A stretch of 59,691 nucleotides of DNA. Source: an uncultured Chloroflexota bacterium. Its GTDB lineage: Bacteria > Chloroflexota > Dehalococcoidia > Lucifugimonadales > UBA826. Below, piece by piece: positions 39,288-42,069 of this stretch. Position numbers and translations under genes: made by a program. The notes beneath the pieces were generated by a model that made no database searches, was not told the origin of the DNA, and saw only the letters and a program-made list of their open reading frames with translations. The stretch is from assembly GCA_913045625.1 (NCBI GenBank), contig CAJWPE010000003.1, forward strand, positions 1-59,691, read 5' to 3'. Each line of letters opens with the position of its first letter. The stretch's first letter is position 1.

Positions 39288-40574
39288 ATGGCAGAAGATA
39301 TTGGTGTTTCTTTATTGGGTTTGGGAGTAGTTGGATCTGGAATTGCAGAACAATTAATTGCAAAAGAACATACATATCAACAACAAGTAGGATCAAAACT
39401 TGTGTTAAATCATGTTCTAGTTAAGGATAAGGATAAGAATAGAGAAATTGAAATTCCTCAACAATTGTTTGTGGATTCTTTTGATGAAATCATAAATGAT
39501 GATAAAACTTCTATCGTAATTGAAGTGATTGGTGGAGAAGAGCCGGCAAAATCATTTATCGTTGCAGCTTTAAATAACAAAAAACATGTTGTTACTGCTA
39601 ATAAAGAATTAATTGCAAAGCACGGTCCTGAATTGATTTCTCTTGCTAAGAAAAATAATGTTAGGCTATTGTTTGAAGCTAGTGTAGCTGGGGGAACACC
39701 GATAATTGCTCCAGTACTTAGAGATTTTTCAGCTAATAATATTACTTCTATAAAAGCAATTCTTAATGGTACTACCAATTATATTTTGTCACGTATGTCC
39801 ACAGAGAATGCTGATTATTTTGAAGTATTAAAAGATGCACAAAAATTAGGATATGCAGAATCTGATCCCACTAATGATGTTGAAGGTATTGATGCCGCAT
39901 ATAAATTGGCGATTTTGTCTTCTTTAAGCTATAAATCATTTGTAAAAGATTCAGATGTCTATTGTGAAGGTATTACGAGTATTTCCGCTAAAGATTTTCA
40001 AATTGCCAAAGAATTGGGCTATGAAATTAAACTTATAGCTTTCTCGGAATTGAAAGATAATCAAATTTCAGCAAGAGTCCATCCTACTTTAATTTCAAAG
40101 AATGAAATGCTTGCTAATGTACATGGAGTTCTTAATTCAGTTCAAATAGAAACTGATTTGATAGGAAATGTTCTTTTTCATGGTGCAGGTGCAGGTTCTT
40201 TCCCTACTGCTAGTGCTGTTTTGGCTGATGTCATTGATATTTCTAGAAATATCTCATCAGGATTTGTTTATTTAGATCACATGAATATAGATCTAAACTC
40301 ATCAATTGGAGATATTTCAAATTTGAGTACGAAATATTATATTCGAGTTTCTGCTAATGACGAACCAGGTGTTTTGTCTAGAATTTCGACTATTCTTGCT
40401 GATCATCAAATTAGTATCGCTTCGTTTATTCAAAAGAGTTCACATGAAGGAATAGCTGAATTAGTGATCATGACTCATGAGGCACTTGAGAGATCCGTTC
40501 AAGAAGCCTTAAATCAGATTAAAAATTTAAGTGCAGTAAAAGCTATAGAAAATTCTATTAGAGTAATGAATTGA
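39288..40574 (+). CDS. hom: Homoserine dehydrogenase
   Basis: 428 residues from ATG 39288, preceded by AGGTGGAA at good spacing; the frame reaches 39219 but that part overlaps the foldase. Seen: Gly-Leu-Gly-Val-Val-Gly-Ser-Gly for NAD(P), Thr-Ala-Asn-Lys-Glu-Leu, Ala-Ser-Val-Ala-Gly-Gly-Thr-Pro-Ile, Leu-Asn-Gly-Thr-Thr-Asn-Tyr, and a C-terminal ACT domain with Asn-Asp-Glu-Pro-Gly-Val-Leu. Reduces aspartate semialdehyde to homoserine. Ends with TGA at 40572-40574, overlapped by the proposed start of the ArsC-like gene. Confidence 0.96.
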   Translation: MAEDIGVSLLGLGVVGSGIAEQLIAKEHTYQQQVGSKLVLNHVLVKDKDKNREIEIPQQLFVDSFDEIINDDKTSIVIEVIGGEEPAKSFIVAALNNKKHVVTANKELIAKHGPELISLAKKNNVRLLFEASVAGGTPIIAPVLRDFSANNITSIKAILNGTTNYILSRMSTENADYFEVLKDAQKLGYAESDPTNDVEGIDAAYKLAILSSLSYKSFVKDSDVYCEGITSISAKDFQIAKELGYEIKLIAFSELKDNQISARVHPTLISKNEMLANVHGVLNSVQIETDLIGNVLFHGAGAGSFPTASAVLADVIDISRNISSGFVYLDHMNIDLNSSIGDISNLSTKYYIRVSANDEPGVLSRISTILADHQISIASFIQKSSHEGIAELVIMTHEALERSVQEALNQIKNLSAVKAIENSIRVMN

Positions 40575-40927
40575 TAAATATAGAATTTTTTTATTGGAAT
40601 AAATGAAGCTCATGTAAAAAAGTGAAAGAGTCTCTTTTACATAAAGACTTTCACTTTTCATTAGAGAGAGACTTTTTTATCAATCGTTTTGCTAGAAAAG
40701 AATTACTCGATTTGTTTGACAATCATGACGTATTTGATTTTTTATCTATAAAAAGTCCTTCATTTAAAAAACTCCAAATTGATTTAGAAAAGCTTTCTAT
40801 AGAAGATGTTATTGATTTGATGGTTGATGAACCTAGATTGATTAGAAGACCATTAGTGAAAATTGGAAATCAAATATTTATTGGAGACATTAAATTAAGT
40901 TTTATGGATGAGTTGGATTTGGCATAA
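40571..40927 (+). CDS. ArsC/Spx-like thioredoxin-fold protein with in-frame TGA (candidate selenoprotein)
   Basis: A GTG at 40622 gives only a 101-residue product that begins after the first strand of the fold. Reading back in frame across TGA 40604-40606 restores a standard ArsC-family N-terminus: TTG 40571, Ile-Asn-Ile-Glu-Phe-Phe-Tyr-Trp-Asn-Lys, then TGA-Ser-Ser-Cys-Lys-Lys, so TGA falls exactly on the first Cys of the CxxC redox motif. The whole product is 118 residues, the usual size. The rest is intact: Glu-Arg-Asp-Phe-Phe, Lys-Ser-Pro-Ser-Phe-Lys-Lys-Leu and Pro-Arg-Leu-Ile-Arg-Arg-Pro-Leu. TGA is a stop elsewhere here, including in hom. Selenocysteine is the attractive reading; a nonsense mutation of TGT or TGC is the alternative. 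Followed by a terminator. Confidence 0.7.
40612..40654 (+). promoter_or_regulatory. Overlapping hairpins downstream of the in-frame TGA (possible SECIS)
   Basis: Two mutually exclusive stems: ATGTAAAA (40612-40619) with TTTTACAT (40635-40642), beginning five bases after the TGA; and GTGAAAG (40622-40628) with CTTTCAC (40648-40654), extended by TCTTT/AAAGA (40633-40637 with 40643-40647), a 4-base bulge and a 5-base loop. Bacterial SECIS elements lie at this distance. The fit to a G in the apical loop and a bulged U is not clear by eye. Confidence 0.35.
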
Positions 40928-40932
40928 AAAAA

Positions 40933-40959
40933 GGGCACCTATAACAGGTGCCCTTTTTT
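40933..40959. terminator. Bidirectional intrinsic terminator
   Basis: GGGCACCT (40933-40940) and AGGTGCCC (40946-40953) form a perfect 8-pair GC-rich stem, followed by six T on the plus strand and preceded by a run of A, so it can end both the ArsC-like gene and the minus-strand surface-protein gene. Confidence 0.9.
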
Positions 40960-40977
40960 AATATATTTAGGTAGATT

Positions 40978-42069
40978 TTAATTTTTCTTGAAAATCAGTA
41001 TTCCACCACTAGTAACTACTAGCAATGCACCTAATACTAGAGACAATTGCATAGTGATTGTTAAAAATTTATCTCCTACACTAGGAAGGCCTAGACCTAA
41101 CACAGATGCGTTAACTTGTTGACCATTAAGTTCGTATGATGCTTCTGATTCAGGTAACTCGCCCTCTATTACAGATAAAGCACCTAATTCTTGAGCTGCT
41201 ACTATTGCTTTGTGAATTCCACCAGCACCTGGTATTTCAACTCTGTCACCGGTCGAATTATATTCAAATTTGTCCTCAAGGCCGTTAAGGATTGCGTGTG
41301 AGTCAGCAACAGATCCACCAGATGCACTTCCGACATATGTCTGAGCTACTGCAAGTGAAGAGGTTCCAGACACGCTTGAGTTATTGGCTTCAATGGAAGC
41401 AATCCAAGTATTGATGTTATTTACGATGGCGTCTATTGCAGACACATCTAAACTTTCATCTGTACTTTTGACCTCAGCACTGGCAGATGAAATATTTGCA
41501 ACTGCTGTTTTTAAGTCACTGATGTCTGAATTAGAACTATTAACACTTGTTTGAATAGATTCTAATGTTGTTGAAGAGCTTGCTGTTTCTAGGTTTGTTT
41601 TAAGGGAATTTGCACTCGCCTTAGCATCATGGATATTAGAAACTAAAGCAGAAATAGATGCAGTATTTTCAGCATTATTACTAGCACTGTATGTGTTTGA
41701 TTCATTTTTTAACTGAAATCTACTATATGTTGACAGTAAATCAGTACCTTCGTGAGCAGCGCTTGAAGAGTCAAATGTAAAATCTATTGACCCTGTACTC
41801 TGAACTACTCCTTGTAGAGTTTCTACATTAACATCTACAACAGAAAGCTCAATAGACTGTTGTCCATCTGAAGAAATTAAAGATGCTGCGTAGCTTCCAG
41901 GAGCTATTCCTGAAACTGAAATGATTGCTGAGTCATTTGCTCCAGCATCATCCGCAAATGTCACTGTACCGTATATAACAGGATCATTAGCCTCGGCAAT
42001 TGATCCAAATGGTATTGCAAATGTAAATATAGTAAGAGCAAATATGGCTATAGTCTTGATTCTGAACAT
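40978..42069 (-). CDS. Secreted, C-terminally anchored Ser/Ala-rich surface protein
   Basis: 363 residues. Seen: a signal peptide (basic start, hydrophobic 7-20, Ala-Glu-Ala cleavage site near 27), an N-terminal beta-type domain, a long low-complexity Ser/Ala/Asn-rich helical middle (about 120-260), and a C-terminus Gly-Leu-Pro-Ser-Val-Gly-Asp followed by a hydrophobic segment and Lys-Lys-Asn. This tail looks like a sortase-type sorting signal (LPxxG, helix, basic end; 36 residues) but could be a simple membrane anchor. A very strong AAGGAGG stands 12 bases upstream. Function unknown; a structural or envelope protein is likely. Confidence 0.7.
   Translation of the reverse strand: MFRIKTIAIFALTIFTFAIPFGSIAEANDPVIYGTVTFADDAGANDSAIISVSGIAPGSYAASLISSDGQQSIELSVVDVNVETLQGVVQSTGSIDFTFDSSSAAHEGTDLLSTYSRFQLKNESNTYSASNNAENTASISALVSNIHDAKASANSLKTNLETASSSTTLESIQTSVNSSNSDISDLKTAVANISSASAEVKSTDESLDVSAIDAIVNNINTWIASIEANNSSVSGTSSLAVAQTYVGSASGGSVADSHAILNGLEDKFEYNSTGDRVEIPGAGGIHKAIVAAQELGALSVIEGELPESEASYELNGQQVNASVLGLGLPSVGDKFLTITMQLSLVLGALLVVTSGGILIFKKN

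Follow-up and report, generated by a model that had tools for sequence, protein, structure and literature searches.

The reading frame at positions 40571-40927 of the window (the whole 59,691-nucleotide stretch of DNA analysed here) is almost certainly a genuine selenoprotein gene, in which UGA 40604 would be decoded in vivo as selenocysteine (Sec) by SelB and Sec-tRNA, with a hairpin at 40622-40640 serving as its bacterial SECIS. Its product would be a thiol/disulfide-type reductase in which Sec12 is the nucleophile and Cys15 the resolving residue. The original prediction had proposed a UxxC selenoprotein of the ArsC/Spx fold, and the Pfam ArsC match, the sel machinery of the genome and the conservation of the TGA with its flanks all agree with it. 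Neither outcome that it had named as adverse, missing sel genes or Cys in close strains with decay in this copy, was seen. The features are as follows.

39288..40574, + strand: hom (homoserine dehydrogenase), directly upstream and overlapping the TTG start (ORF list; homologous upstream ORF in 17 neighbourhoods)
40571..40927, + strand: gene of an ArsC/Spx-like selenoprotein of 118 aa with Sec as residue 12, running from the TTG start to the TAA stop (translation with TGA as U, Pfam ArsC, alignment of 35 homologues, structure model)
40604..40606, + strand: UGA codon predicted to be read as selenocysteine, at the position of the active-site nucleophile (TGA in ~71 genomes, Cys in 6, machinery in the genome)
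40613..40615, + strand: codon of Cys15, second residue of UxxC and probable resolving Cys (invariant in the 35-sequence alignment)
40622..40640, + strand: putative bacterial SECIS hairpin inside the coding sequence, 8-bp stem GTGAAAGA / TCTTTTAC around loop GTC (synonymous-recoding test, covariation, local fold of -6.4 kcal/mol)
40847..40852, + strand: codons of Arg93-Pro94, corresponding to ArsC Arg94 / Spx Arg92 and the Pro next to it (invariant in the alignment)
40927..40959, + strand: strong intrinsic terminator directly behind the gene (-21.4 kcal/mol, z -4.95; terminator scan)

Reading frame and selenocysteine machinery

The frame reads as first described when rechecked against the sequence, in its coordinates, its start, its TGA, its motif and its length of 118 residues. 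The TTG start (40571-40573) overlaps the hom stop codon TGA (40572-40574), codon 12 is the TGA at 40604-40606, the only one inside the frame, and the TAA stop lies at 40925-40927. Translated with TGA as U, the product reads LINIEFFYWNKUSSCKK...EPRLIRRPLVKIGNQIFIGD... and carries the motif U-S-S-C. Standard gene calling on the window returns only a 101-aa ORF from GTG 40622, a start with which the active site is lost. When the whole window was searched for ORFs extended through a TGA, 40571-40927 alone had a SECIS-like stem exceeding 5 bp.

The source bin (1.42 Mb, 96 contigs, 94.6% complete, 7.5% contaminated) holds all four components whose presence the original prediction had made its first check: SelA (contig C39, 435 bits), SelB (contig C2, 358 bits), SelD (contig C18, 375 bits) and a tRNA-Sec with a UCA anticodon (contig C48). 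In view of this slight contamination, the machinery was also looked for in relatives. SelA matches occur in 57 of 60 relatives (E <= 0.001), some of them merely partial or distant, and both same-genus bins have a full SelA and a tRNA-Sec. The SelD gene of the genome (L043, G000:C18:15966-16886) has an in-frame TGA of its own (...LATCAGUASKLSP...) and is itself a selenoprotein candidate. The tRNA-Sec gene (L003 1501-1598) sits between a thioredoxin gene and an ORF reading like an EVE-domain protein.

An open frame through TGA would also be expected if the codon were read as some other amino acid, by a change of code or a near-cognate suppressor. This reading has a negligible probability: the genome encodes a tRNA-Sec that matches the codon, homologues carry Cys there, and the hairpin described below is specific to TGA genes. 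TGA also terminates hom directly upstream, which upholds the earlier argument that the codon is still a stop elsewhere and that a change of code is excluded.

Conservation of the codon and its hairpin

Of 60 relatives, 41 have a homologue of the gene, and inspection gave TGA for 38 of these and Cys for three (G046, G055, G056). The same TGA is found in the copy of a sister species (83% identity) and in a third copy, ~70% identical, with protein sequence conserved on either side. Contig JAKUTY010000002.1 of a SAR202 bacterium gave an equal match of 83%, and from this nearest relative the window most likely belongs to the SAR202 cluster, class Dehalococcoidia. Scanning of genome contigs returned one close relative, L041 of SAR202 bacterium ALOHA_A2.5_119; the second match, L042 in a Cellvibrionaceae bin, covers just 15 residues and was set aside. 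The class-wide sample (294 genomes, 44 with a match) adds 33 TGA genomes, 12 of them read by eye and the rest taken from an automated count of stops within the match, and three Cys genomes (G089, G197, G337). These figures leave out genomes already counted and G120, which was rejected as a family member on being recognised as a CxxC glutaredoxin. The totals are TGA in ~71 genomes and Cys in six. Both comparisons suggested at the outset gave the expected result, TGA in close relatives with conservation on both sides and, in six other genomes, Cys at the TGA position.

The in-frame TGA is flanked on both sides by conserved coding sequence, as expected of a bacterial selenoprotein. Invariant in the alignment of 35 sequences are U/C12, C15, L22, R33, D34, F36, S62, E87, P88, R89, R93 and P94. 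Over the 11 codons before the TGA, the window gene differs from its two closest homologues at one and three codons, and just one of these differences changes a residue; judged by this comparison, the codons upstream of the TGA are under protein constraint. If the TGA were instead a recent lesion in a Cys gene (a pseudogene, a nonsense mutation or a sequencing error), translation would begin at GTG 40622 or not occur at all, in keeping with the single 101-aa ORF of standard gene calling and with the draft quality of a bin with 7.5% contamination. The sharing of the same TGA by ~71 genomes, the constraint on the upstream codons, the covariation of the hairpin and the full Sec machinery leave next to no probability for such a lesion, and conservation of the TGA and its flanks across many lineages refutes it for practical purposes.

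SelA accompanies the TGA form in 66 of 71 genomes (35/38 among the relatives, 31/33 in the class-wide addition), and the five TGA genomes without it are incomplete bins of 55-90% completeness. The Cys genomes are mixed. G046, G056 and G089 have neither a full SelA nor a tRNA-Sec at the thresholds used; G055, whose bin is 83% complete, has a tRNA-Sec without a full SelA; G197 and G337 have both. The strict prediction that the Cys form occurs only where Sec coding has been lost thus failed. G055 (L017), G197 (L066) and G337 (L067) are cases of Sec/Cys exchange without loss of Sec coding.

Three loci deserve separate mention. In the sister bin G002, a second block of hom, selenoprotein gene and surface-protein gene, ~70% identical and likewise with TGA, lies on a short contig (L052, G002:C37:1185-1529; L012) and probably represents a second species mixed into the bin. 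G007 carries the gene together with its neighbours twice, nearly identical and on separate contigs (L013, L053; G007:C9, G007:C28), likely strain redundancy of a bin with 9% contamination. L069 (G168:C10) is a family member with the TGA and a full 8-bp hairpin, in which an apparent frameshift ~30 codons further on looks like a sequencing error or a decaying gene.

The original prediction made no mention of a conserved SECIS hairpin. Its stem begins 15 nt after the TGA and its loop 23 nt after it, with G as the first loop base. When 39 TGA genes were compared at this fixed position with no gaps, all 8 pairs formed in 29 genes, 7 in seven, 6 in one and 4 in two (G034, G027). The mean is 7.6 of 8 pairs, as opposed to 4.5 expected under synonymous recoding with matched third-position G+C, and the mean hairpin energy is -9.9 as opposed to -3.6 kcal/mol. 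The window gene has 8 pairs (P ~0.02) and -6.4 kcal/mol (P ~0.004) under the same recoding. In the three Cys genes tested, the hairpin was not found (2-3 pairs, no better than expected). Pair counting gave 93.9% of cells paired versus 34-62% in slid registers; both sides had changed in 40 cells, versus a shuffled mean of 11.4. Because the structure was discovered on these same, mutually related sequences, the counts are not probabilities, and the contrast with slid registers, synonymous recoding and Cys genes is the stronger argument. On comparative grounds, the conservation of the hairpin, with its compensatory changes, exceeds what the encoded protein demands and points to a bacterial SECIS.

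The published bSECIS model comprises an upper stem of 4-16 bp, a loop of 3-9 nt with G in the first two positions, a distance of 16-37 nt from the UGA and an energy <= -7.5 kcal/mol. The window hairpin fits this geometry with its 8-bp stem, GTC loop and 23 nt from UGA to loop. This A+T-rich copy is weak, at -6.4 kcal/mol against the -7.5 of the model, a value that may rest on another stretch or program. Folding of 61 nt of the window copy gives a different, longer hairpin that is more stable than the SECIS candidate, and folding the full 48 nt that start at the TGA as a single sequence gives an unremarkable result (z -0.56). The case for a SECIS therefore depends on the local hairpin together with the comparative data. 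Near the gene, Rfam returned nothing above its gathering score, and its weak matches fall on the terminator or close to it.

Fold, family and probable function

Residues 9-105 match Pfam ArsC PF03960 with 52.5 bits (cut-off 24), which places the protein in the ArsC superfamily. An AlphaFold model from the natural alignment, with Sec represented as Cys, has a mean pLDDT of 90.3. Its best solved structures are tied, with Z scores of 15.8 for Spx, 15.7 for an ArsC-type protein and 15.5 for YffB; E. coli ArsC scores 13.3. By sequence, the closest solved structures are those of Spx. In ArsC, Arg60, Arg94 and Arg107 are catalytic residues. The residue at position 93 of the window protein, equivalent to ArsC Arg94 and Spx Arg92, is an invariant Arg in the 35-sequence alignment. 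Spx Gly52 is the residue for contact with the α-CTD of RNA polymerase.

Superfamily, fold and the invariant equivalent of catalytic Arg94 would suit a Sec-dependent arsenate reductase, which would detoxify arsenate with Sec12 as nucleophile. The protein resembles E. coli plasmid ArsC (PDB 1i9d; sequence verified against PDB for the residue comparison) in fold and in the positions of the nucleophile and Arg94, but differs in having UxxC in place of CxxS and in two further catalytic residues. Cys12 (as U/C) and Arg94 of the TIGR00014 set are present, whereas Arg60 is replaced by Ser, Ala or Asn throughout the 35 members and Arg107 has no aligned equivalent. TIGR00014, the model for glutaredoxin-linked arsenate reductase ArsC, scores 25.7 bits against a cut-off of 106.05. 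Among the neighbours, identified by reading alone (hom, an SDR-like gene and others), no ars gene was recognised. On balance, arsenate reduction is an improbable function.

Spx (B. subtilis, PDB 1z3e / 3gfk) shares the fold, the position of the CxxC and the RRP motif with its Arg92 equivalent. As the nearest solved structure by sequence, and at the top of the structural list in a tie with ArsC-type proteins, it raises the reading of a Spx-type regulator whose Sec12-Cys15 pair would be a redox switch for RNA polymerase binding; one Cys homologue, G056, just passes the Spx/MgsR model (77.3 vs 75.05 bits). The window protein itself differs from Spx in carrying Sec for Cys10, in a loop two residues shorter and in Asp at the Gly52 position, where none of the 35 members has Gly. 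It also falls below both curated Spx cut-offs (NF002459, 55.6 vs 123 bits; TIGR01617, 52.7 vs 75.05 bits). This reading is very improbable. Equally slight is the chance that the clade forms its own Spx-like selenoprotein subfamily within SAR202 and other Dehalococcoidia, whose Sec12-Cys15 pair would not be enzymatic but would serve as a redox switch for RNA polymerase or some other partner; if true, it would amount to a selenium-based regulatory switch.

The NF041106 model (ArsC_rel_Se_1, "ArsC family (seleno)protein"; PMC13188914) has ArsC family membership and UxxC in common with the window clade, and 28 of the 35 members match it at E <= 0.001. The window protein stays below its cut-off (25.5 vs 85 bits), and the best E-value of any member is 2e-10; the clade is probably a sister subfamily. 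Because the curated ArsC, Spx and NF041106 models are unsatisfied and residues are missing, the protein is classed as a UxxC selenoprotein of the ArsC superfamily, with neither arsenate reductase nor Spx identity proven.

Gene neighbourhoods add little on function. In 17 of the neighbourhoods compared, the gene is preceded by an ORF homologous to hom, and co-transcription of hom with the selenoprotein gene is probable; downstream, an ORF reading like a short-chain dehydrogenase occurs in 10. Beyond the taxonomic family the gene has different neighbours, and context thus gives no hint of the substrate, and the neighbourhoods compared indicate neither substrate nor redox partner. In this genus only, among the neighbourhoods compared, a convergent ORF (40978-42069, - strand; 363 aa) shares the terminator with the selenoprotein gene. 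Its signal-like N-terminal segment and hydrophobic C-terminal segment make it a probable surface protein.

By analogy with thioredoxin-fold chemistry, the most likely function is that of a Sec-dependent thiol/disulfide-type oxidoreductase. The product would have a thioredoxin fold of the ArsC/Spx form, with the Sec12 selenolate attacking as nucleophile and Cys15 resolving the intermediate through an Se-S bond. Arg93 probably serves to stabilise either the selenolate or the substrate once bound, and a thioredoxin-type donor would recharge the protein.

Precedents and significance

The kind of protein is already described. Catalogues have included ArsC-like UxxC selenoproteins since 2006/2008, with ocean metagenomes among the sources. 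A 2006 listing for bacteria names "ArsC-like" selenoproteins (PMC1794560), ocean sampling added "Arsenate reductase 2, cd03032, UxxC" with 42 sequences in 2008 (PMC2398784), and further entries appear as COG1393 in a 2022 review (PMC9312934) and as NF041106 (PMC13188914). The ocean-sampling family has in common with the window protein the ArsC-type fold family, UxxC, a marine origin and TGA with Cys homologues (PMC2398784), and the "Arsenate reductase-like protein" of the review has the same fold family and motif (PMC9312934). Both were compared by description and UxxC motif, not by sequence, and subfamily identity is thus not implied. In a literature search that was not exhaustive, no paper linking SAR202 with selenoproteins was found, and the assignment to the SAR202/Dehalococcoidia lineage may be new.

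The analysis places an ArsC/Spx-like selenoprotein in SAR202/Dehalococcoidia, bacteria in which Sec coding is widespread. With ~71 Sec genes, six Cys genes and a SECIS missing from the Cys genes tested, the family offers a natural set for the study of Sec/Cys exchange.
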